Assembly (NCBI GenBank): GCA_024279915.1
Contig: JAJRRB010000076.1
Location: forward strand, 1 to 64,000
Length of the DNA stretch: 64,000 nucleotides
Direction: 5' to 3'
Source of the DNA: Deltaproteobacteria bacterium
GTDB taxonomy: Bacteria > Desulfobacterota > Desulfuromonadia > Desulfuromonadales > BM103
In this document: piece after piece, positions 2 to 46,908 of the stretch
Layout of the letters: the number at the start of each line of letters is the position of its first letter
Numbering within the stretch: the first letter of the stretch is position 1
Notes under the pieces: generated by a model
Database searches by the model: none
What the model saw: only the letters and a program-made list of their open reading frames with translations
What the model was told of the DNA's origin: nothing
Program-made: the position numbers and the translations under genes

Positions 2-400
2 ATGAAGATGGATAAGGACAAGACCATGGATCATGACATGAGTGCTATGAAAGGTGACTTTGTTGAAATCGGTAAAGATACGCAAAGCGGTGTTGTTGCC
101 ACGGTCAAGGTCAAAACTTATGATGAAAAGACCCTCGCCACAATGGCAAAAATGGGTATGGATGCAACCCACCACGTGATGATTCTTTTCGTAGATGAGA
201 AGAGTGGCGACAGCATTGCTGGCGGCAAGGTTGCCCTCAAAGTTAAGGGTCAGGATGGTAAGCCTGTTATGCTGATGCAAATGAAAAAAGGTTTCGGTGC
301 TGATATCTCGGTAGAAGAGGGGATGCATACCTTCGAAATCGGTACCAAGCTTGAAGATGGCAAAAAGCGCCAGTTTTCGATTAAGTTTCACAACATGTAA
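2..400 (+). CDS. Met/His-rich conserved hypothetical protein, probably 5'-truncated by the window edge
   Basis: Unrecognised protein of at least 132 residues. The frame is open to the window edge, so the visible ATG at base 2 may be internal and a signal peptide may lie upstream. The first 20 residues are rich in Met, Asp and Lys. The body is clearly paralogous to the next gene: both carry ATHH followed by a hydrophobic strand, a VALK strand, FGADI and GTKLEDGKKR near the C-terminus. The pattern of beta strands suggests a small secreted beta-sandwich. Met and His content suggests a metal-linked role, but that is inference only. It sits upstream of a bc-type respiratory operon and is separated from its paralogue by a strong hairpin. 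Confidence 0.6.
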   Translation: MKMDKDKTMDHDMSAMKGDFVEIGKDTQSGVVATVKVKTYDEKTLATMAKMGMDATHHVMILFVDEKSGDSIAGGKVALKVKGQDGKPVMLMQMKKGFGADISVEEGMHTFEIGTKLEDGKKRQFSIKFHNM

Positions 401-405
401 CCAAG

Positions 406-438
406 TCGGGGGTCGTAAAACGGCCCCCGATGATTTTA
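406..438 (+). terminator. Hairpin between the two paralogues, possible terminator or attenuator
   Basis: TCGGGGG and CCCCCGA arms (406-412 and 424-430) extend through CGT/ACG to an AAA loop. A short T-rich stretch follows (TGATTTTA). The stem is very GC-rich, but the U-tract is poor, so it may only partly terminate transcription between the two genes. Confidence 0.55.
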
Positions 439-499
439 CGTTTTCCGTTTAAGGAGGACGGTGCCAAGGGCACTTGTCGACCCCTGAAAGGTATATCCG

Positions 500-985
500 A
501 TGAAGAAGTTAAAAATATCAACAATGCTGTTGATTGCTCTTTTGAGCATACCGCTTGCCGCTGCGGCCGTAAACTCTGACGAAATGGGACATGCTGGTCA
601 TGGCATGCAGAAAGAACACGCCAAGATGGCATCGGGCGGTTCGATGATGATGGTCGGCAGTTCGGTCAGTAAGGGCGTCAAAGGGATGGCTCATATTAAA
701 GATGTTTCTGCAACCATGGCGGAAATGGATATGAAAGCAACCCACCATTTCATGATTGCGTTTATCGATGAGGCGACCGGCGAACCGATAGAAGCCGGCA
801 CAGTCGCCCTGAAAATCACCAATCCAGATGCAAAGGTTGGAGAACCAATCGAACTGATCGGTATGGCTGGCCATTTCGGTGCCGATATTGTCCTTGATAT
901 GGAAGGTGAATATCATTTCAAGCTTGGCACCAAGCTTGAAGATGGCAAGAAGCGCACGTATCATTTTCACCAGATAATTAAGTAA
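500..985 (+). CDS. Secreted Met/His-rich hypothetical protein (paralogue of the preceding gene)
   Basis: A 161-residue protein with a clear signal peptide (Lys-Lys start, hydrophobic residues about 8-22, AAA cleavage region). After cleavage comes a His/Met-rich stretch (MGHAGHGMQKEHAKM, residues 29-43) that looks able to bind metal, then the same domain as the preceding gene (ATHHFMIAF, VALKI, FGADI, GTKLEDGKKR). The family was not recognised. Tandem placement and similarity show a duplication, with the second copy gaining or keeping the His-rich segment. An export location is supported by the signal peptide. Copper or haem handling near the downstream bc operon is possible but not shown. Confidence 0.75.
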   Translation: MKKLKISTMLLIALLSIPLAAAAVNSDEMGHAGHGMQKEHAKMASGGSMMMVGSSVSKGVKGMAHIKDVSATMAEMDMKATHHFMIAFIDEATGEPIEAGTVALKITNPDAKVGEPIELIGMAGHFGADIVLDMEGEYHFKLGTKLEDGKKRTYHFHQIIK

Positions 986-1238: not shown

Positions 1239-2918
1239 ATGACAGCGGCACCCCCTAAATGGATTACACCGTTTTTCTATTGTTCCGTGTTAGCGGCTTT
1301 ATTTGCCGTAACACTGGTTTTTCTGCGACATGACACCGACAGACCCGATATTGGCACGCATGAAGTTGCTGACATTACCATCAATCTGGATGGGCAACCT
1401 GTCAGAGAACATTGCACAACCTGTCATATCGACGGGGCCCGACCTGACCCTGCACACCTCAGCCAGACCGTAAAACCTCATCCAGACATAGCTCCTCACC
1501 GTATTGACCAACTCGGTTGCACTGGATGTCATCTTGGTGAAGGGATGGCACTGGATATTGAGATTTCGCATGGCTTGCCCGGTCTTGAGGCGCGTAAGGT
1601 TTTGAGCGGCAAAGAGATGCAGGCATCCTGTTTCAGGCGTCATCAGCCTGGACCACTTCCCGGTGCAGAAAAAGCCTGGAAGGGCTACCAACAGTTTTTC
1701 GCGAAAGCCTGCAATACCTGTCATGCTATCAGCCGTGTTGGCCAGAGCGGATTCTATGGACCCGATTTGAGTCGAATTGGTGCGGTTGTCGGCCTCGATC
1801 AGATCCACTTGGCCATACGCGAGCCACGTAAGGAACCTGTCAACTCCAAGATGCCGCGCTTTCCTTTGTCGAAGAATCATTCACGGCAAATCAGTTATTT
1901 CCTGAAGAGTCTCGCCGGGGATTCTTTTTATGCGACACCGATGCAGATGCAAACAGGTATGGCCGAAACAACAGAGATTGACCTTCGTCCGCAAGGGGTA
2001 GAATTGTCTGATGGGGAGAGCGCCCTTTATCAGAAGCAGTGTCTCGCCTGTCACCAATTCGGCCAGGTCGATGGTCGGATCGGTCCTGACCTGACCTATA
2101 TCGGGTCTCAACGAGATGCAGATTACCTTTATGCATTTCTGGATAATCCGACCCGCCTGATTCCAGGGGTAGCCATGCCCCGCATTCCCATGGCTTCGGC
2201 AGCCGAAAAAAAACTGGTGCAGTTTCTTTTGAATGACGCCGTCGGTCCCGTTGCAGAACACACACAAACATCCGCTGATGTGATGACACCGCAAAAGCAA
2301 GAGTCTTCATCAATGGGAGCAAAACAGCTATACATGCGGCTTTGTCAGCGTTGTCATGCTGCCGAAGGGGATGGACGCGGCCCCATTCAACCCAATCTGG
2401 CAAATTTCCCAAGGGCTTTTGCTGGTAATGCCGATTTCTTCCGTTCGGCCAGTGACAAGAGGCTGCAGGAGAGCGTTCGCAACGGCATACCCGGGACGTC
2501 CATGCCGAGTTACAACAAACTCCTCAATCAACAACAGATCGATCCGTTGCTAAACTTGGTTTTTACTGCGTTCATCAACCTTGATCGCCATGATAAGGCG
2601 ATTCTCAGCGCACTGCCTGATTCACCGGAAACCCCAGTCTCGCAAAACCGAAGCAATGAACTTTATGTTGAAAATTGTCAGCGATGTCATGGCTCATTCG
2701 GTACCGGTACAGGGCCGGAATATCTCGAACACCAGCCGCGACCTCGTAATCTGCGCAATAAACCATATTTCAATGCTCTTTCGGACCGTCGTATTGCCCG
2801 AGTCATTCATGACGGTATACCGGGAACGGCCATGCCAGCCTTCAGGGATCACCTCGATGGCCCGGACTTCTGGGGCCTGGTCGAAAAAGTACGGGAGTTT
2901 TCCAGGAGCCAGGACTGA
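1239..2918 (+). CDS. Membrane-anchored multihaem cytochrome c (six CXXCH) of a bc-type complex
   Basis: A 559-residue protein with an N-terminal hydrophobic anchor at about residues 12-29. CXXCH haem c motifs lie at residues 59, 94, 158, 268, 369 and 480. A seventh site at 131-135 reads CFRRH, so the second cysteine is replaced by Arg. Possible Met axial ligands follow several domains (KMPRFP, AMPRIP, SMPSYN, AMPAF). The last two domains resemble class I cytochrome c modules. It directly precedes a Rieske protein and a cytochrome b with gaps of 2 bp, so it is very probably the electron-accepting subunit of a quinol:cytochrome c oxidoreductase. The start at the ATG has only a weak upstream GAGGG. 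Confidence 0.85.
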
Positions 2919-2920
2919 TC

Positions 2921-3382
2921 ATGGTCAAGCTCACGCGCAGGAAATATCTTGGGAAAGGATTGACAGGTCTGCTCCTGTTCAGTGTGGGCGGCCTCCTGCT
3001 GGATGTCTGGATGTCCGCAGGTCGTTTTTCGTCCACTCACTGGAAGGCGCTCGTTGACGCAAGGAATTTGCCGGGAGATGGTACTTATCCTTTCCCGAAC
3101 AACAAGGTCGCACTCGTAGTCAGCCGAGGGCGCCTGGCGGAAATCAGCCTCGAGTGCACCCATCTTGGATGTATCGTAAATGCAAGTGATGAGGGGTTTT
3201 TCTGCCCCTGCCACGGCAGCGAATTCGGTCCAAGAGGAGAGGTCTACTCAGGACCTGCTCCAAGGTCTCTTCCCTGGCATCTGGTCAAGGTGAAAAACGA
3301 TCAGGTCTGGTTCCATTCAGGTAAAAAATCAACAACAGCTGAATGGGTTTCTTACCTGGCTAAAGAAGGCAGGATGTCGTAA
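2921..3382 (+). CDS. Rieske [2Fe-2S] protein of the bc-type complex
   Basis: A 153-residue Rieske protein. Cluster ligands are visible as C79-T-H81-L-G-C84 and C95-P-C97-H98-G-S, giving the usual 2 Cys and 2 His ligands plus the disulfide pair. The N-terminus has a twin-arginine-like start (RRKYLGKG) followed by a hydrophobic stretch to about residue 30, matching Tat-dependent insertion with an uncleaved anchor, as known for this family. Its ATG lies 2 bp after the stop of the cytochrome c gene and its stop 2 bp before cytochrome b, so the three are translated as a unit. It would carry electrons from quinol at the Qo site to the multihaem subunit. Confidence 0.95.
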
Positions 3383-3384
3383 CC

Positions 3385-4425
3385 ATGGCGCGTAACTTTC
3401 TGAGTCATATACACGCCGGCAAAGTTAGCCCGCAAGCATTGAAGCCGACGATAACCTTTGGCCTGGGGGTCGCTTGCCTGACCTGTATGGCCATCCTGGT
3501 TCTCACTGGGATCACTCTGTTTCTCTATTATATTCCGGATCAAGCGAAGGCCTATGAAAGGATATTGCACATCACGACCACCTTGCGTTTCGGCAGGGTG
3601 GTTCGCAACCTGCATTTTCTGGCTGCCAATGCGCTGATCATACTCAGCGTGCTGCATCTAGCCCGGGTGGTCCTGACCGGTAGTTATCGTAAACGCTGGC
3701 TTAATTGGACGTATGGGCTGGTTCTTTTGCTCCTGGTTATGTTTGCTAATTTTACCGGTTACCTGCTGCCATGGAATCAGATATCCTATTGGGCGGTCAA
3801 GATCGGCTCAGCACTTCTCGAATATGTCCCCCTGATCGGACTTTCTCTCAAAAGTTTTTTGCTCGGTGGTGATGATGTCGGACATGAGACATTGTTGCGC
3901 TCGTTTGTATTCCATGCCGGGTTCATTCCTCCTCTCATGCTGGTTTTTGTCGGTCTTCACCTTTGGCGTGTTCGTAAAGATGGGGGCCTCGCAGCAGCCG
4001 AATTCTCGGATGGTGTAAAAGTCAACGCAGACCCTTGGCTCTATCGAGCTGAAGCCGGGGTCGCATTCAGTGTCCTGGCGGTACTGTTGCTACTTGCGTT
4101 TTTTATCGATGCACCGATTTATGAGCGCGCCAACCCCTCTCATCCGCCCAACCCGGCTAAAGCTCCTTGGTATTTCGTCGGCGTTCAGGAGATGATCAGC
4201 TATTCGGCAATGCTGGGTGGCGTCGTTGTTCCAGGGCTGGTTCTCGGCTATTTATTGCTTTTACCAAAACTCGATCAAAGTACAACGCCTGGAGGGAAAT
4301 GGTTTGCTTCCGACCGTCGCGTCTGGTCTTTGATTTTTCTTGCGATCATGGTGAGCCAAATTGTTTTCATCGTAATAGGAGTCTGGTTTCGAGGGCCTAA
4401 CTGGCAGCTTGTGCTGCCATTCTAA
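3385..4425 (+). CDS. Cytochrome b (b6/subunit IV fused type) of a quinol-oxidising complex
   Basis: A 346-residue integral membrane protein with about eight hydrophobic helices. Four haem b ligands fit the b6 spacing: H77/H91 (13 between) and H177/H192 (14 between). The C-terminal third resembles PetD/subunit IV. The Qo-site PEWY motif reads APWY at about 260-263, a variant that I recall from deltaproteobacterial cytochrome b proteins. It is thus a single polypeptide joining both cytochrome b halves. With the Rieske and cytochrome c genes it forms a compact operon that oxidises menaquinol and conserves energy; the physiological acceptor cannot be told from sequence. Confidence 0.93.
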   Translation: MARNFLSHIHAGKVSPQALKPTITFGLGVACLTCMAILVLTGITLFLYYIPDQAKAYERILHITTTLRFGRVVRNLHFLAANALIILSVLHLARVVLTGSYRKRWLNWTYGLVLLLLVMFANFTGYLLPWNQISYWAVKIGSALLEYVPLIGLSLKSFLLGGDDVGHETLLRSFVFHAGFIPPLMLVFVGLHLWRVRKDGGLAAAEFSDGVKVNADPWLYRAEAGVAFSVLAVLLLLAFFIDAPIYERANPSHPPNPAKAPWYFVGVQEMISYSAMLGGVVVPGLVLGYLLLLPKLDQSTTPGGKWFASDRRVWSLIFLAIMVSQIVFIVIGVWFRGPNWQLVLPF

Positions 4426-4443: not shown

Positions 4444-4959
4444 ATGTTGTTTTTTAAAAGAATTGTGAGCTTAACGATTGTACAGGTCCTTTTAATTGCG
4501 ACTGGTTATGCCGTGGCAATGGACGAACAACAAGTGGTGCGCTTTGCTCAACTCTTAGCTATGGACATGCCGCAATTGACCTCTACGGCCGAAAAATTAC
4601 TTGAACAAAAATATCCAGATGAGGATTGGGACCAGTATGGTTTCCCCTCCTTTGTTTACACAAGCGATTCTGTAGAAACTGGCTACAGGGTTGCGGTCAA
4701 GGAACCACGTTTGCTCGGGGAGGCCAATGTGAGTGGCAAGGAGACTGTCATCCCATGTTATTGCTTCTGCGATGCCATGGGGCACAATAACCTCCTGTAT
4801 TGTTTCTGGAAAGACGGGATTCCCGGAGGCGAGTTTGATGATCATGCTTCTAACTGCAACATCTGTTACGGTCAGGCTATGTTAGCTTTTCTCTGGAGTG
4901 ATCTTGGTGCGACACACGAAGAAATTATTACAGGAATGGAGAAGAAGTATTCACGCTAA
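4444..4959 (+). CDS. Exported PCYCGC-motif-like protein downstream of the bc operon
   Basis: A 171-residue protein with an N-terminal signal peptide (hydrophobic about 5-25) and a strong AAGGAGA ribosome site 18 bp after cytochrome b. The C-terminal half has PCYCFCD, then LLYCF, FDDHASNC and CYGQA. This layout matches the family of unknown function with a PCYCGC motif, here with F in place of G. The conserved Cys/His set suggests metal or cofactor binding. The position at the end of a bc operon suggests a role in assembly or electron transfer of that complex, which is inference. A strong terminator follows at about 5.1 kb. Confidence 0.75.
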   Translation: MLFFKRIVSLTIVQVLLIATGYAVAMDEQQVVRFAQLLAMDMPQLTSTAEKLLEQKYPDEDWDQYGFPSFVYTSDSVETGYRVAVKEPRLLGEANVSGKETVIPCYCFCDAMGHNNLLYCFWKDGIPGGEFDDHASNCNICYGQAMLAFLWSDLGATHEEIITGMEKKYSR

Positions 4960-5125: not shown

Positions 5126-5359
5126 CATGATTATGCGTTAATTCTTAAGAGCCACTGCTCTGTAACCCACCTAATTCTGGATATCCTCTATAGACTGTAG
5201 AATATTGTGAAGCGTTAATGATGGGTATGCAATGAATGACAATGTGGAACTATAAGAATACTTATAAAACAACCACTTACGATTCACCATGCCTGTTGGC
5301 ATACCTGATGCAAAGTTAATGTGTCAAGTGGTTTAGGAGGATAAAGGCATTTCGCCTAA

Positions 5360-5414: not shown

Positions 5415-5822
5415 ATGCATAAAAAAACTATTTTCACTACCGGGTTGTCTGTATTTCTCTTCTTGGCGCTGGTCGGTATCGCGTCGGCAGGTGACATCGG
5501 AACAGAAGCAGGGAACTGGGAGTACAATTTTGATTCTCCTGATGTCGCAGTAGAAGGCTATCAATACGATCAAGAGGCACTGGCGCGGATCGGTAGTGAA
5601 GCAGGAGATTGGGAGTACAGGTCTGGTGCTCCGGAAACAAAAGCTGATATTGCAGCGAAGAATTACCAGTACGACCAAGAGTCTTTGGCATTAGTTGGTA
5701 CAGAAGCTGGAGACTGGGAGTTCAAAGGCAATTATGAGTCTGATGCCAGTACAGGCAACACAGCCAATGAAGCTGTTGCTGATAAAGGTAAAGCCAAAGA
5801 TTCTGTGTGTAAGGGATGCTGA
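5415..5822 (+). CDS. Small secreted GTEAG-repeat protein with CKGC C-terminus
   Basis: Unrecognised 135-residue protein with a signal peptide (hydrophobic 10-25, ASA-G cleavage). The mature part contains three repeats marked by G(T/S)EAG at residues 29, 60 and 95, each followed by (D/N)WEY/F, then an acidic linker with a YQYDQE(A/S)LA strand. The last residues are CKGC. A clear paralogue lies at 11024-11455 on the other strand with the same repeats and the same tail. A good GGAGG site precedes the ATG. The CXXC tail on a secreted repeat protein suggests metal, redox or covalent attachment chemistry, but nothing proves it. Confidence 0.75.
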   Translation: MHKKTIFTTGLSVFLFLALVGIASAGDIGTEAGNWEYNFDSPDVAVEGYQYDQEALARIGSEAGDWEYRSGAPETKADIAAKNYQYDQESLALVGTEAGDWEFKGNYESDASTGNTANEAVADKGKAKDSVCKGC

Positions 5823-6081: not shown

Positions 6082-6510
6082 CTAAGCTGCCTTTGTTTGT
6101 GACAACGCGTTAAAGTAAACCTGATCCGGGGTCTGCCCGTCAAGACTCGAATGTTGTCGGCGGCTGTTGTAAAAGTTGAAATACCGGTTCAATCCTGTCC
6201 TGACGGCTGAAGCTGAATCATAATCCCTGAGATAAATATCCTCATACTTCACGGATCGTCATAGACGCTTGATAAAAACATTGTCCCGCCACGAATCCTT
6301 GCCATCCATGCTGACGCGAATATCATGCTACTTCAAAGGACCGGTAAAAGCCTGAGAAGTAAATTGACTGACCTGGTCGGTATTCATGGTTTCCGGTGTC
6401 CCTTAGCGTGAAATCGCTTCTTCTACCGCCTCCAAACAAACATGAACATCTAGGTGATTGATACTTTTCACGACAAAACGCGTCGGGTGTAGCAATCCAC
6501 CACAGTTTAA
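6082..6510 (-). pseudogene. Decayed IS3-family transposase OrfB (integrase core) remnant
   Basis: Read on the minus strand, this stretch gives a degenerate IS3-type OrfB: an ISRxGTPE segment with a stop where Tyr is expected, then NTDQVSQFTS (the conserved D of the DDE core), GPLK, DGKDSWRDNVFIKRL, a stop where Trp is expected, SVKYEDIYLRDY, and the hallmark C-terminus RRQHSSLDGQTPDQVYF. At least two in-frame stops and the missing 5' half show that it is dead. No intact terminal inverted repeats were identified. It marks past insertion in the accessory stretch between the two CKGC paralogues. Confidence 0.8.
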
Positions 6511-6906
6511 ATTAGGAAGCCTCCGTCCAAAATATAAATATGTCAGCAGGAGTATTCTCGCACAACTTATGATGGTTTGCTGAGAATATTGTTGGGCAGA
6601 TTGACACTATTGTTGAGTTTGTATCGAAATAAGCTTTTTAAATGTGAAGAATTGTAGATTTATAGCGGATTTATTTAAAACATTGTTTGGCACGATTACT
6701 GAAACAAAAGCGTTCAGGCTATTGTTTGGACTTGTTAAGATATTGTTAAGTACATGTAAAATGTACAAGGGACAAGGAGTATATAACGAACGATTACAAT
6801 TGATTCTAAATACAGAAGGTGGACTTGTTTATTTCATTGGTTTTTATGATTTGCTAGCCCAAACATAATTTAAGTTGACACAATTGTAAAATTTTTAGGA
6901 GGTATC

Positions 6907-8343
6907 ATGAAGAATGCACGCATTTCTGCTTTATTTGTACTGGTAACTTTATTCGCGGTTCCCGCTTATTCTTTAGAAACCAAACTTTCAGGCTTTTATA
7001 ATGTTAGAGGTATAAGTGATAACTTTTCTGCCACTAACAATTATGTAGGTACACTTACGGGTGACTCTAAGTCTGAATCACTAGTTGATTAAAGGCTTCG
7101 GCTGAAGTTGGACTCACAAATTAATGACTACCTTTCGTTTGTCTATTATGCAGAGATGGATATGCAGTGGGGCGACAAACAATATTCAAACGAGGGTCGA
7201 AACGATGGTGGGGGAATTGGGGGTGACACAACCAATCTGGAGACTAAAAACGTTTATTTTGACGCAAATTATCCTGAATCGAACCATAGTTTTCGTGTAG
7301 GTTTGCAAGGCTTTGATGATAACTATGAGTATTCCTTTTTTGGTGCAGATATGGCCGGTGTTAAATACTCAGTAAAAATAAATGATCTCGACGTGGTCGC
7401 TGGCTGGTTCTTGCTTATAGAAGATGAATTCGATAAAACAGACGATGTCAACCTTTGGGCTCTTCAGACCAATTACGAATTCTCGGAGAACCTGAAAGTA
7501 GGTGGAGATTATTATTATTATCAGAACCAAGGTAGCCAGCAATATGCCACTTTCTTTGGAACAGCAGATATAGAAGCTGTTATTGCTGACTCTACTTGGA
7601 CTGCAAATCGTGAAGAAATGGACCTCCATTACCTGGGTGGCCATGCAGAATATCGACTGGACAACTTAGTTTTAAGTGGTTGGCTCAATGTTAATGTTGG
7701 GACTGTAGATGGAATTAATAATGATTTGTCTTCGCCAGCTTCAGTAGAAAACCTGGATGTCCAAGGTTATGCTGCACGTCTTAATATTGACACCAAGGTC
7801 AACGGAATCAATCTAAGGCTGGGAGGGACATATTTCTCTGGTGATGACGATTTGACGGATGGAGATGCAGATTTTATTGTGAATCCACTGGCAACGGAAT
7901 CTTTTGCTTTTGCAACAGATGGATTTATGATTTTTACTCCTGATATCGCATGGAACAGTGTTGGTCAGTATGGTTTTGCCTTAGTTGATGCTGCGTGGGC
8001 TGGGTATGGCTTGGGAAGCGTAGTGCTGACAGCGAAATATGTCCCTGAATCCGCAAAAGACCTGACCATTAAGGGTGGCGTGGGCTATTTCACTTCTATT
8101 GAAGATAAGCTGGCAGCAAACGATCCCAGGACTGACCGTGCAGGAACCGAACTGGGTACAGAGGTGTTCCTGAGAGTAGGGTATACGGTTTCAGAAAAGT
8201 TAAATCTTTCTCTAAATGGTGCCTACGCTTATTTAGGAGATTTTTATGATGATCATGGTGGGGGTACTGCGGTAAATGATGCCCTCGTAACAAGCATTGA
8301 TGACCCGTATGAGGTCTATGTAAAAGCAACATTGACGTTTTAA
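6907..8343 (+). pseudogene. Outer-membrane beta-barrel (porin-like) gene interrupted by one nonsense codon
   Basis: A signal peptide and first strands (61 codons from 6907) are followed by TAA at 7090-7092, and the same reading frame then runs on for over 400 codons to 8343. Around the break the reading is LVD-stop-RLRLKLDSQIND, where Gln would be natural (CAA to TAA). The downstream part has alternating amphipathic strands, many Tyr/Trp/Gly/Asp residues and a C-terminal VKATLTF ending in Phe, typical of outer-membrane barrels of alginate-export or porin type. Total length would be 478 residues. A GGAGG site precedes the ATG. A single substitution separates this from an intact gene, so a recent mutation or a sequence error is possible. 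Confidence 0.8.
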
Positions 8344-8538: not shown

Positions 8539-10224
8539 ATGAGACGATTGGTTGTAGGAATCTGTGTAGCTCTGTGGTTGATTTGTACATATGTGTCTTT
8601 GCCTGTCTTTGCTGAGCCTGTTCCGGCTGATTTGCTGGATTTTCTTAAGCCGTTAGATGCGAAGGTTGTTATGAGTGTTAACTCTGAAGTATTGATTAAC
8701 AAGGGCTCCTCTGATGGTTTTTACCCGGGTGATATCCTGTCTGCTGTAACAGCGGAAAAGGTTGTTCGACATCCTGATACCGGCCAAGCTTTAGATACGC
8801 TTTTTACATATGGTAACCATCTGATTGTCACAAGGGTAAAAGAAAATATCAGTTACTGTCGTGTGCTAGATAGAAATGAAAATTTTGAGAATGGGGTTCG
8901 TTTGCACCGATTTGCAAACGTTCCCGTAGAGGTCTTGGATGCGACAAACAGTGGCTTCGAGTTTTACAGGAGATTGCGGCAAGAAACTCCTCACTTGAAG
9001 TGGTTAGGTTATCGAGTGGAACCTGAGAAAGATGTAAAAAGAATTGATTTAGGACTATCGGTGCAATTAGCTGACAATAAAGTAGAGGTCCTCAATCAAG
9101 ATGACAAAATTCTTTACTCGGGGGAGGATGAAAGTGTTGTTCATCAGGCCGATGTGAGTGAACCTTACAATGCTGTGGCTGACAACGCAATTTCTGAGAC
9201 TGAGCCGTTAAAGTCAAAAGTTTTCTCTAGCTCTGAAATGTCAGGTCAATTGAACAATTCTATGCTCAGAATTAACTTGCCGACGCAGGGTGAGATAGGA
9301 GCCTTGCGTGTCAGTGATCTCGATAATGATGGTCAGTCAGAGATCCTTTATAGTGTTGACAATAATATTATCATTAGTCGATTAGATGGCCAACATTTGG
9401 TGGAGGTTTCTAGCTATTCAGATCCTGTTTGGGATCAAGTTGTAGATATTTCTGTCCTCGATATTAACGACGATAGTAAAGGTGAAATTATTGTGTCAGC
9501 TATTGCTGACAACCAAGGCGTATCCACGGTTTTTAGGTACGAAGAGGGACATTTGACTAAGTTAGTTGAAGAGAGGATCCTGCTCGGGACATTTGTACAG
9601 CTCAACAATAAGCCTATTTTAGTTGGTGTGGAAGATGGTGACTATTTGTATCCCAGACCTGACCTGTATAAGGTTGAGCTATCTGGAAAGGAATTTGTAA
9701 AAGAGCCTTTTAAGTTTGGTAGTGCTAAACAGCCATATGGAATAGCATCATTTAGGGATAAACAGGGCACCGTCTTGAGGGTGGTGTTGTCACGGCATAA
9801 TAAAATTAAAATATTTGAATTGGATGGTGAACGGCGATGGGAAAGTCCTCTCCGGTATGGTGGTACAATAAACAGTGTTAAAGTTCAAATACCAGGTGCA
9901 CGTAACGTTGATGCGTTTGATAAGTTTTATTTTAGTTCAAAAGTGTTAAGAACTTCTTCCCAGACTTTAATCGTTGCTAAACATGACAAGCCAGGTATGT
10001 TTAAAAATAGCCCGACTTATGCTAATGGTCAGATTGTAGAATTGTCTTGGAATGGTTATTCTTTAGATGAAATATACAAAAGTGATTCTGTTGGTGGCAT
10101 GATTACAGATTTTGATTATTACGATATAGATGACGATGGTGATTTTGAAATAGTTGCTTCTGTTTTGTATCAAAGAAGTGGGTATAAACAAAAACCATAT
10201 TCCGGGTTAGTTGTCTTGAATTGA
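8539..10224 (+). CDS. Exported FG-GAP/VCBS-repeat protein with FlgT-like N-terminal domain
   Basis: A 561-residue protein with a signal peptide (hydrophobic 5-25, FAEP cleavage). Residues about 40-115 (VLINKGSSDGFYPGDIL, a PDTGQALD turn) resemble the FlgT C-terminal type domain found in many exported deltaproteobacterial proteins. From about residue 245, calcium-binding-like loops appear (DLDNDGQSEI, DINDDSKGEI, DIDDDGDFEI), typical of FG-GAP/VCBS beta-propeller repeats. A GGGAG site lies before the ATG. The following gene is convergent. Likely periplasmic or cell-surface; the ligand is unknown. Confidence 0.75.
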   Translation: MRRLVVGICVALWLICTYVSLPVFAEPVPADLLDFLKPLDAKVVMSVNSEVLINKGSSDGFYPGDILSAVTAEKVVRHPDTGQALDTLFTYGNHLIVTRVKENISYCRVLDRNENFENGVRLHRFANVPVEVLDATNSGFEFYRRLRQETPHLKWLGYRVEPEKDVKRIDLGLSVQLADNKVEVLNQDDKILYSGEDESVVHQADVSEPYNAVADNAISETEPLKSKVFSSSEMSGQLNNSMLRINLPTQGEIGALRVSDLDNDGQSEILYSVDNNIIISRLDGQHLVEVSSYSDPVWDQVVDISVLDINDDSKGEIIVSAIADNQGVSTVFRYEEGHLTKLVEERILLGTFVQLNNKPILVGVEDGDYLYPRPDLYKVELSGKEFVKEPFKFGSAKQPYGIASFRDKQGTVLRVVLSRHNKIKIFELDGERRWESPLRYGGTINSVKVQIPGARNVDAFDKFYFSSKVLRTSSQTLIVAKHDKPGMFKNSPTYANGQIVELSWNGYSLDEIYKSDSVGGMITDFDYYDIDDDGDFEIVASVLYQRSGYKQKPYSGLVVLN

Positions 10225-11023: not shown

Positions 11024-11455
11024 TTAGCATCCTTTGCATATAGCATCTTTTACTTTGCTTTCATCTGCCACTGCTTCATTGGGGGTTAATGATCCATAGT
11101 CTTTTATTCCCGAGGCATCAAACGTGAACCCATCGTTTCCTGCTTCAGTACCAACTGTTGCCAGTGACTCCTGGTTGTAATTGTAATTCCTTGCGGCTAT
11201 GTCAGCTTTTGTTTCCGGAGCATCAAACTTGTACTCCCAGTTTCCTGCTTCAGTGCCGACTTTCGCAAGTGATTCTTCGTCGTATACATGGTTTTTTACG
11301 GCATCGCTGACATCTGTGCGTGGGGCGTCAAATGTGAACTCATCGCCTCCTGCTTCGGAGCCATCATAGATGACTTCACCAGCCAAAACTGTTCCGGCCA
11401 GGCCCAAGCAGAAGAAAGCTACCAATATACTAATGAAAAATTCTTTTTTAAACAT
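11024..11455 (-). CDS. Small secreted GTEAG-repeat protein with CKGC C-terminus (second paralogue)
   Basis: A 143-residue protein with a signal peptide (hydrophobic 8-24, LAG cleavage). G(S/T)EAG motifs occur at residues 32, 67 and 102, exactly 35 residues apart, each leading into a WEY/FTF strand, FDAP and a Y(D/N)(E/Q)ESLA strand. The C-terminus (NEAVADESKVKDAICKGC) matches the copy at 5415-5822. The segment ETKADIAA(R/K)NY is nearly identical in both. An AAGGAGA site precedes the ATG, and a good promoter and long leader lie upstream. Function unknown; likely extracytoplasmic. Confidence 0.78.
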   Translation of the reverse strand: MFKKEFFISILVAFFCLGLAGTVLAGEVIYDGSEAGGDEFTFDAPRTDVSDAVKNHVYDEESLAKVGTEAGNWEYKFDAPETKADIAARNYNYNQESLATVGTEAGNDGFTFDASGIKDYGSLTPNEAVADESKVKDAICKGC

Positions 11456-11564: not shown

Positions 11565-11594
11565 ATTATATCAATGTTACATACATCGTGCCAA
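11565..11594 (-). promoter_or_regulatory. Sigma70-type promoter for the CKGC gene
   Basis: On the minus strand TTGGCA (11594-11589), an 18-bp spacer and TATAAT (11570-11565). The -10 is a perfect consensus and the -35 differs at one base. Transcription would start about 100 bases upstream of the ATG at 11455. Confidence 0.65.
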
Positions 11595-12050
11595 GTTGAT
11601 GTGGTGCGAGTAACTAGCTGAATGTACAGTGGATTAATGTTTTGTCATTATATGCGACAAGAAATTACTAGGCAATTGAGGAGAATATTCAGCAGCACCT
11701 GTAGAATATCCATCTGGTTATGTATGTTGGTGTCGTATTAACCTTAGTGACTTGCTGTAGTAGGTGGTTGCGGAAACCCCTTTACTGTGAAGGATGGTCG
11801 CATTACCTAATAGTTGACAGATACCGGAACCACAGACTGCTTGTAGAATCTCAATTCCCTTGACGATTGTCCTCGTGTTTAAAAATTGACTTTAAGTCGA
11901 AGGAGCAAGCATGTATTATGCAGTTGGTCGACATTTGAGTAGGGGAGATAGCTCTTGGCAGGGGCAGCAAGTATCTTTTGTCTGTTGTCGCTATCTAGTG
12001 TCGGTGTCAGCTAACTTTTGTCAGTAGCATAATGAAATGGAGGAGGTTTT
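11595..12050. other. Gene-free AT-rich stretch upstream of ssb
   Basis: No coding frame with a convincing start and no repeat or clear terminator was found in this stretch. It must hold the ssb promoter, but no confident -35/-10 pair could be chosen. Confidence 0.5.
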
Positions 12051-46605: not shown

Positions 46606-46908
46606 GGCCCTCACCCCTCTTTAAAATCGTACTGTTGATTAGCTCGCCTTGGTCTTTAGCTCAAAACCAAAACGTCCACCCTCGACAACACGAAGATGGA
46701 TGATAAGAACCCCTGTGGATTTCTCACCCTCTTCTTTAACTGGGCTGTCTCGTGATTGAGACTCCTGGCTTTGCGTCCTCAAGTCACCCTGAGTTTGCTA
46801 CTGTTGGAGAGCTGTGCCAAAAAGTTACTAAAGAACAGTGTTTTACGCAATAGATTTAACAGTTGAACGGGATTATGCCTATCTAATTGTCGAGTGTGTT
46901 GTTGTTGA

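Follow-up and report, generated by a model that had tools for sequence, protein, structure and literature searches.

Copies A and B are two small proteins encoded in the window, the 64,000-nucleotide stretch of DNA analysed here. We propose, with a little less than even confidence, that they are induced, exported dithiol proteins of a sigma-54 metal-efflux regulon and act there as a metal sponge or carrier. Within this proposal, the statement that genes of their class share a sigma-54 two-component regulon with a Cus-type pump appears well supported by the promoters and genes compared. Since they have a DNA switch in common with pump genes and keep a cysteine pair, the proteins are suggested to catch toxic metals or to guard thiol chemistry beyond the inner membrane. 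The class proteins are small and acidic, probably lack a fixed structure and are exported to the periplasm or beyond. Features of the window are collected in Table 1.

Copies A and B and the class of two-cysteine exported proteins

Copy A is an exported, acidic protein of 135 residues with an ATG start. Its leader is a Sec-type signal peptide with cleavage between MHKKTIFTTGLSVFLFLALVGIASA and G (read by eye), GTEAG repeats begin at residues 29 and 95 and a GSEAG repeat at residue 60 (spacings 31 and 35), and the chain ends in CKGC followed by a TGA stop. The signal peptide, three G(T/S)EAG repeats and terminal CKGC named by a first-pass annotation of this DNA can all be read in the translation of the open reading frame; it gave a (D/N)WEY extension to all three repeats, but the third reads DWEF. 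When the mature chain was shuffled 100,000 times, no shuffled chain contained more than one G(T/S)EAG motif and 228 contained at least one; three are observed. The one structure prediction gave a mean pLDDT of 41 and a pTM of 0.14, a model of no confidence.

The diverged paralogue that the annotation placed on the other strand is copy B, in which the full GTEAG(N/D)WEY is present only once, but the source genome (G000) contains five paralogues rather than two: A, B, C54:61917-62339, C54:69828-70235 and C56:83212-83598. All five end in CxxC before the stop, the fifth as CSKC. By simple NG86 counts, dN is below dS in all six paralogue pairs computed (0.16 and 1.08 for copy B and the C54:62 kb copy; 0.36 and 1.15 for copies A and B), which indicates that the G000 paralogues are under purifying selection, as had been argued from the retained duplication. 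In the C54:62 kb paralogue, five tandem copies of a 16-bp unit follow the stop codon immediately (L002 from 1921). Selenocysteine read-through was considered for copy A, where a short open stretch continues past the TGA that follows CKGC. It was rejected, and CxxC taken as the true protein end, because copy A and the two C54 copies do not agree in sequence beyond the stop and because TAA is the stop of the C56 copy. Haem c attachment by the tail was rejected as no histidine follows CxxC.

Table 1. Positions of the features discussed, numbered from the first letter of the window
Feature	Position	Strand	Basis or remark
Pair of Met/His-containing proteins, the first lying right at the start of both window and contig	2..985	+	
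Multihaem cytochrome c, Rieske protein and cytochrome b, upstream of PCYCGC gene	1239..4425	+	same order in G036
PCYCGC-family protein (PF13798) adjoining copy A	4444..4959	+	Pfam/NCBIfam
Copy A upstream element 1, GGATATCCTCTA	5179..5190	+	weak, 8/12 to GAATATTCTACA
Copy A upstream element 2, GAATATTGTGAA	5200..5211	+	9/12 to GAATATTCTACA
Copy A sigma-54-type -24/-12 promoter, TTGGCATACCTGATGCA	5296..5312	+	119 bp before ATG
Copy A, three G(T/S)EAG repeats and CKGC	5415..5822	+	ORF, translation
Outer-membrane beta-barrel-like gene beside FG-GAP gene	6907..8343	+	by eye; no Pfam match
Protein matching FG-GAP weakly	8539..10224	+	relatives near five class loci
Copy B, paralogue, 143 residues, C-terminal CKGC	11024..11455	-	ORF, translation
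Copy B sigma-54-type promoter, TTGGCACGATGTATGTA	11578..11594	-	139 bp before ATG
Copy B element at -96, GAATATTCTCCT	11679..11690	-	
Copy B element at -117, GGATATTCTACA	11700..11711	-	

Neither copy matched a Pfam or NCBIfam family above cut-off, which supports the annotation's suggestion of a possible undescribed family. Searches of PHROGs and PADLOC with copy A, copy B and the G019 homologue gave only chance-level matches (E 0.0028 or worse), and the best match of copy A in a PDB sequence search was at E 0.023. A tblastn search of copy B against 72,556 plasmid records, a collection that presumably holds sil and pco genes, gave no match at E<=1. An alignment search of 136 genomes of Desulfuromonadales gave matches in 12 genomes at E<=0.001, 7 of them clear and 5 weak, and the clear homologues are 13 proteins in G000, G003, G004, G008, G019, G057 and G110. 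When 395 genomes were drawn from the phylum, 2 had homologues, both Desulfuromonadales. Of two contig scans, the first gave none and the second gave three Desulfuromonadales MAG loci that are the same as three known loci. By these matches, homologues were found only in Desulfuromonadales within the genomes searched, an order known for metal and sulfur respiration. No description of the family was found in the literature searched, which took in few subscription papers; there 'gteag' occurred only as a letter string under unrelated titles, and none of four longer strings was found.

Twelve of the 13 clear homologues end in CxxC-COOH, and the cysteines of the G057 protein are the 11th from the end and the last residue. 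Six relatives share the leader type and the promoter and are without the repeat: two in G007 and one each in G006, G010, G012 and G037. Five of these are weak protein matches at E<=0.001 and the second G007 protein is a promoter-pattern match; the G007 proteins have IELDESDY repeats in place of GTEAG, and the tails of such same-promoter relatives run from C-x11-C to C-x22-C. With the first 26 residues dropped as the leader, exactly two cysteines are present in 19 of 19 class members (13 homologues and 6 relatives), both within the last 27 residues, and the mature chain is net acidic in all of them; the C7 remnant described below and a one-cysteine candidate in G083 stand outside this count. 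The latter (L182 415-603) is exported, 62 residues long and contains the repeat ELGIGE twice; its gene follows a sigma-54-type promoter and element. The leader is conserved across the class while the mature part diverges, and after the leader His numbers 0-5 and Met 0-4 (18 proteins), so the proteins are not His/Met-rich. The constant feature is the cysteine pair at the C-terminal end, not repeat spacing. The strict 31-35-residue spacing in the first-pass annotation did not survive, as repeat number varies among homologues and the repeats are absent from same-promoter relatives, and its conserved final CXXC stands for the 12 homologues but not for the G057 protein or the non-repeat relatives.

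One could regard the class as generic stress-induced acidic spacer or matrix proteins with no specific ligand, the pump link then reflecting a broad envelope-stress regulon. The acidic, aromatic chains without confident structure are in line with this, as are the recurrent FG-GAP, outer-membrane and ECF-sigma neighbours, but we give it little probability: a cysteine function is hard to dismiss because exactly two near-end cysteines are present in every one of the 19 proteins.

A shared sigma-54-type promoter and its candidate regulator

A sigma-54-type promoter (TTGGCAY-N5-ATG-like) lies 119-146 bp before the ATG in 11 of the 13 homologues, the C56 and G004 copies being without it, and elements resembling GAATATTCTACA at 95-97 and 116-119 bp upstream of the promoter are likewise present in 11 of 13. 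In the six non-repeat relatives the promoter is at 129-141 bp with the same element arrangement. The elements of copy A are weak, below the 12-bit cut, and the far element of G003:C113 agrees at only 7/12. The class promoter has an NtrC-type (sigma-54) layout, -24/-12 with upstream elements, which copy A shows weakly.

Scanning G000 for the promoter alone gave 30 sites, against 7 for the control; 29 of the 30 were examined, one copy of a repeated contig start being left out. Six of the G000 sites carry the element at the set distance (A, B, C54:62 kb, C54:70 kb, C7 and C54:77 kb). Across the 136 genomes, a composite pattern gave 10 matches in 8 genomes and 0 in the control: eight before class genes (including the C7 remnant), one before the OMF gene of G036 and one in G106 (C69), which is probably chance because no class gene is seen after the site. 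A TGCAT variant gave 5 matches in 3 genomes (4 promoters), with 3 promoters before class genes and 0 matches in the control. The composite patterns are strict, and weaker members such as copy A are therefore missed. In a locus-wide scan, with an element weight matrix trained on class promoters, an element of at least 12 bits was found upstream of 26 of 117 promoter-like sites and of 0 at the mirrored distance, a count biased by the many loci fetched by the pattern itself; members that were not fetched in this way include G037, G010, G092, G084 and G110. G049:C229 was matched by both the TGCAT variant and the locus-wide scan, and L057, L065 and the second L112 were also matched in the latter.

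The C7 site of G000 precedes genes for a histidine kinase (HisKA, HATPase and a weak DUF4118 match) and a response regulator with receiver, sigma-54 (AAA+) and HTH_8 domains, with TlpA-like, CcdA-like, Fur and FeoB genes downstream. Between promoter and kinase lies an apparent small-gene remnant ending in CSHC, and the kinase reads through. The gene order in G008 is GTEAG gene, kinase, regulator. At E<=1e-15 the kinase sensor is present at 95 places in 90 of the 136 genomes. We examined 70 of these loci (the 30 first returned and 40 chosen mostly from families f1 and f8) and found an element of at least 13 bits before the kinase gene in 44; no site scored here was in the training set of the weight matrix. 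The element was found in 18/20 loci of family f1, 23/29 of f8, 2/2 of f17 and 1/19 of the others, and in 31 of 700 random control stretches, some of which hold true sites. By its domains the response regulator is a sigma-54 activator, and these counts suggest that it is autoregulated via the same element. In G019 and G057 the GTEAG gene has the element and the genome's own kinase is without it. In most genomes where kinase and element occur together, a class gene is not detected at E<=0.001, so the system also serves other purposes. A fragmented relative of the response regulator lies near the C54 GTEAG genes (L029 11116-13554), and an unbroken relative adjoins a GTEAG gene in G003:C25.

Among 30 kinase loci scanned, two (G008 and G012) have a class gene immediately upstream of the kinase, and the kinase gene carries the same element as class genes, as would be expected if the class protein were a feedback partner like CpxP or ZraP, a small stress-made protein that tunes the sensor. 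We consider this quite unlikely. The kinase is present in 90 of 136 genomes but class proteins in only 12 (E<=0.001, weak matches included), a set of five divergent paralogues in a single genome is more in keeping with an effector, and at C7 it is the small gene that looks like a remnant while the kinase is intact as a reading frame.

Pump genes, neighbourhoods and the proposed function

At C54:77 kb in G000, promoter and element stand before the gene of a TolC-type, OEP-family OMF, after which a CusB-like reading frame with a heavy-metal-binding motif begins (by eye) and is cut off by the contig end; the CusA expected next is not visible in the assembly. In G036, promoter and element precede an OMF-CusB-CusA operon. 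The two OMFs are 42% identical over 416 residues and their promoters have one clear element each. CusA of G036 can be aligned with E. coli CusA along most of the chain. The residues at M573, M623, M672 and E625 (positions mapped by hand), through which the E. coli protein binds Cu(I) (PMC8092243), are conserved in it, so that both the methionine triad and the acidic residue of this site are present. The next gene encodes a protein 47% identical to the weakly YtkA-like product of 500-985 in the window, and cytochrome c, Rieske, cytochrome b and PCYCGC genes are divergent from the pump operon. OMF-like genes with promoter and element were also seen by eye in G092 and G084, and four of the 70 kinase loci examined (G084, G085, G078 and G100) have a divergently placed OMF motif beside the kinase.

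No kinase match at E<=1e-15 was found in G036 or G092, whose assemblies are 87 and 71% complete, and another regulator may therefore act there. With two of four pump genomes lacking the kinase, our confidence in the metal-binding reading is slightly lowered. Additionally, the metal is uncertain because NCBIfam scores the OMFs, below cut-off, also against the divalent-metal exporter IhpA, and scores the G036 CusB under its CusB cut-off. Metal attachment via the tail, one of the roles offered by the first-pass annotation, would agree with the regulon found.

We clustered 198 ORFs of at least 80 residues from 17 neighbourhoods; overlapping ones (A with B; two C54 genes) were counted separately and G010, G012, G036 and G037 were left out. 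Families found in at least three neighbourhoods are the class itself, kinases, response regulators, the FG-GAP protein, DUF3106-type, PCYCGC, thioredoxin-like, CcdA-like and outer-membrane-like proteins, and an ECF sigma factor (Pfam) with a small partner that is placed like an anti-sigma factor and has no Pfam match. In L029, L038, L039 and L040, class genes lie near the ECF sigma factor and small partner together with a DUF3106 protein, an association seen by clustering in three loci and by Pfam in C54. A PCYCGC gene is often next to cytochrome b across the order, and the only other one in G000 also adjoins a GTEAG gene. We rejected PCYCGC as a partner of all class members because only three GTEAG genes have it as a neighbour and it often follows cytochrome b at loci with no GTEAG gene. 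Within the window, an in-frame TAA at 7090-7092 breaks the beta-barrel-like gene between its signal-peptide part and the barrel, a degenerate IS3-type transposase remnant (6100-6640, minus strand, by eye) lies between copy A and this porin-like gene, and the sole Rfam gathering match is a c-di-GMP-I riboswitch at 46732-46809 (minus strand, 45.4 bits).

A modifying enzyme, sortase or exosortase common to at least three of the 17 neighbourhoods was not found, and the dedicated modification or sorting system envisaged by the annotation is accordingly not supported. The one radical-SAM/B12 protein, encoded some 0.7 kb away from the C56 copy, does not recur in the other neighbourhoods. C-terminal sorting signals (PEP-CTERM, GlyGly-CTERM and the like) consist of a hydrophobic stretch plus a basic cluster, neither of which was seen by eye in the class tails. 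That the class proteins are modified or surface-anchored peptides, RiPP-like precursors or carriers of a sorting signal whose tail cysteines are modified, would suit a constant leader, a variable core and cysteine-ending tails, but is very unlikely given the lack of a common enzyme in the 17 neighbourhoods, a leader that looks like an ordinary signal peptide and tails without a hydrophobic anchor.

The main rival to metal binding is thiol-redox work, in which the terminal CxxC would be a redox-active dithiol on a flexible arm, served by TlpA/CcdA/Dsb partners. Envelope thiol redox would then be buffered or relayed, with metal stress only one trigger. Thioredoxins have CxxC as their redox motif, three loci (C7, G008 and G057) have TlpA-like and CcdA-like genes nearby, and G057 is also near DsbB, a DsbA-like protein and VKOR. 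We nevertheless judge it unlikely, since thioredoxin-like genes cluster in only 4 and CcdA-like genes in only 3 of the 17 neighbourhoods, copies A and B match no thioredoxin family, and the C-x11-C to C-x22-C tails of the same-promoter relatives are more easily reconciled with a disulfide or a metal site than with a redox-active CxxC.

In the metal-binding reading, a soft metal, for instance Cu(I) or Ag(I), or linked thiol stress would be the stimulus for a membrane-sensor histidine kinase, which with an NtrC-type response regulator would switch the class genes on through sigma-54; the regulator would bind the GAATATTCTACA-like element. The C-terminal cysteine pair would bind that metal outside the inner membrane, which we regard as close to an even call, and the protein may serve as an induced sponge or carrier that hands the metal to the pump or keeps it outside, its repeats acting as a replaceable acidic, aromatic spacer. 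Against a metal role, one cysteine pair per protein gives a small metal capacity, and Met and His are scarce. A wider reading, doubtful but still plausible, is that the class consists of regulon-defined exported metallopeptides in which promoter, leader and two terminal cysteines are kept and the body is swapped between unrelated acidic sequences. The bodies (GTEAG-DWEY repeats, IELDESDY repeats or none) would belong to fast-evolving, multi-copy soft-metal catchers, which the sigma-54 two-component system would deploy alongside a Cus-type pump in Desulfuromonadales. Should the tails prove to bind soft metals, the class would consist of inducible exported metal-binding peptides whose body evolves freely around two fixed cysteines. 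The previously unnamed family is in any case given a testable regulon, and a candidate metal- or thiol-stress switch is named, comprising a kinase present in 90 of the 136 genomes and a defined DNA element.

Comparison with known systems

Like the class members, proteins of the PCYCGC/CYCXC family (PF13798, NF041379) are small, exported and carry a cysteine motif, and GTEAG genes have one as a neighbour twice in G000 and once in G003. Their sequence is different, however, with an internal PCYC motif, and they are often found by cytochrome b without a GTEAG gene. ZraP and CpxP are small exported products of two-component regulons, ZraP via sigma-54, with helical chaperone folds, whereas copies A and B have no family match and no confident fold.

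SilE and PcoE are silver- and copper-binding proteins of the periplasm in the sil and pco systems, and PcoE, like SilE, is small and exported. SilE is small, exported, unstructured when free, and encoded with the SilCFBA efflux complex (PMC5008109). Class proteins resemble both in being small and exported. Class genes and Cus-type RND pump genes have promoter and element in common and may be co-regulated. The class proteins differ in that no sequence relation to either is detectable (Pfam, NCBIfam, plasmid tblastn) and in being under a sigma-54-type promoter. SilE binds by His/Met motifs, whereas in the class Met and His are scarce and the two terminal cysteines are the likely soft-metal ligands. 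On homology and His/Met content the class does not belong to the SilE/PcoE family, but its setting appears alike.

CorSR of Myxococcus xanthus is a kinase with a sigma-54 response regulator that controls copper-tolerance genes; the CorSR/curA operon includes a multicopper oxidase, a P-type ATPase and others, and one exported hypothetical protein is listed in the published table (PMC3707914). CorS has a HAMP domain, whereas the kinase here has a weak DUF4118 match. As a sigma-54 copper two-component system, CorSR is a precedent for the regulon proposed here.
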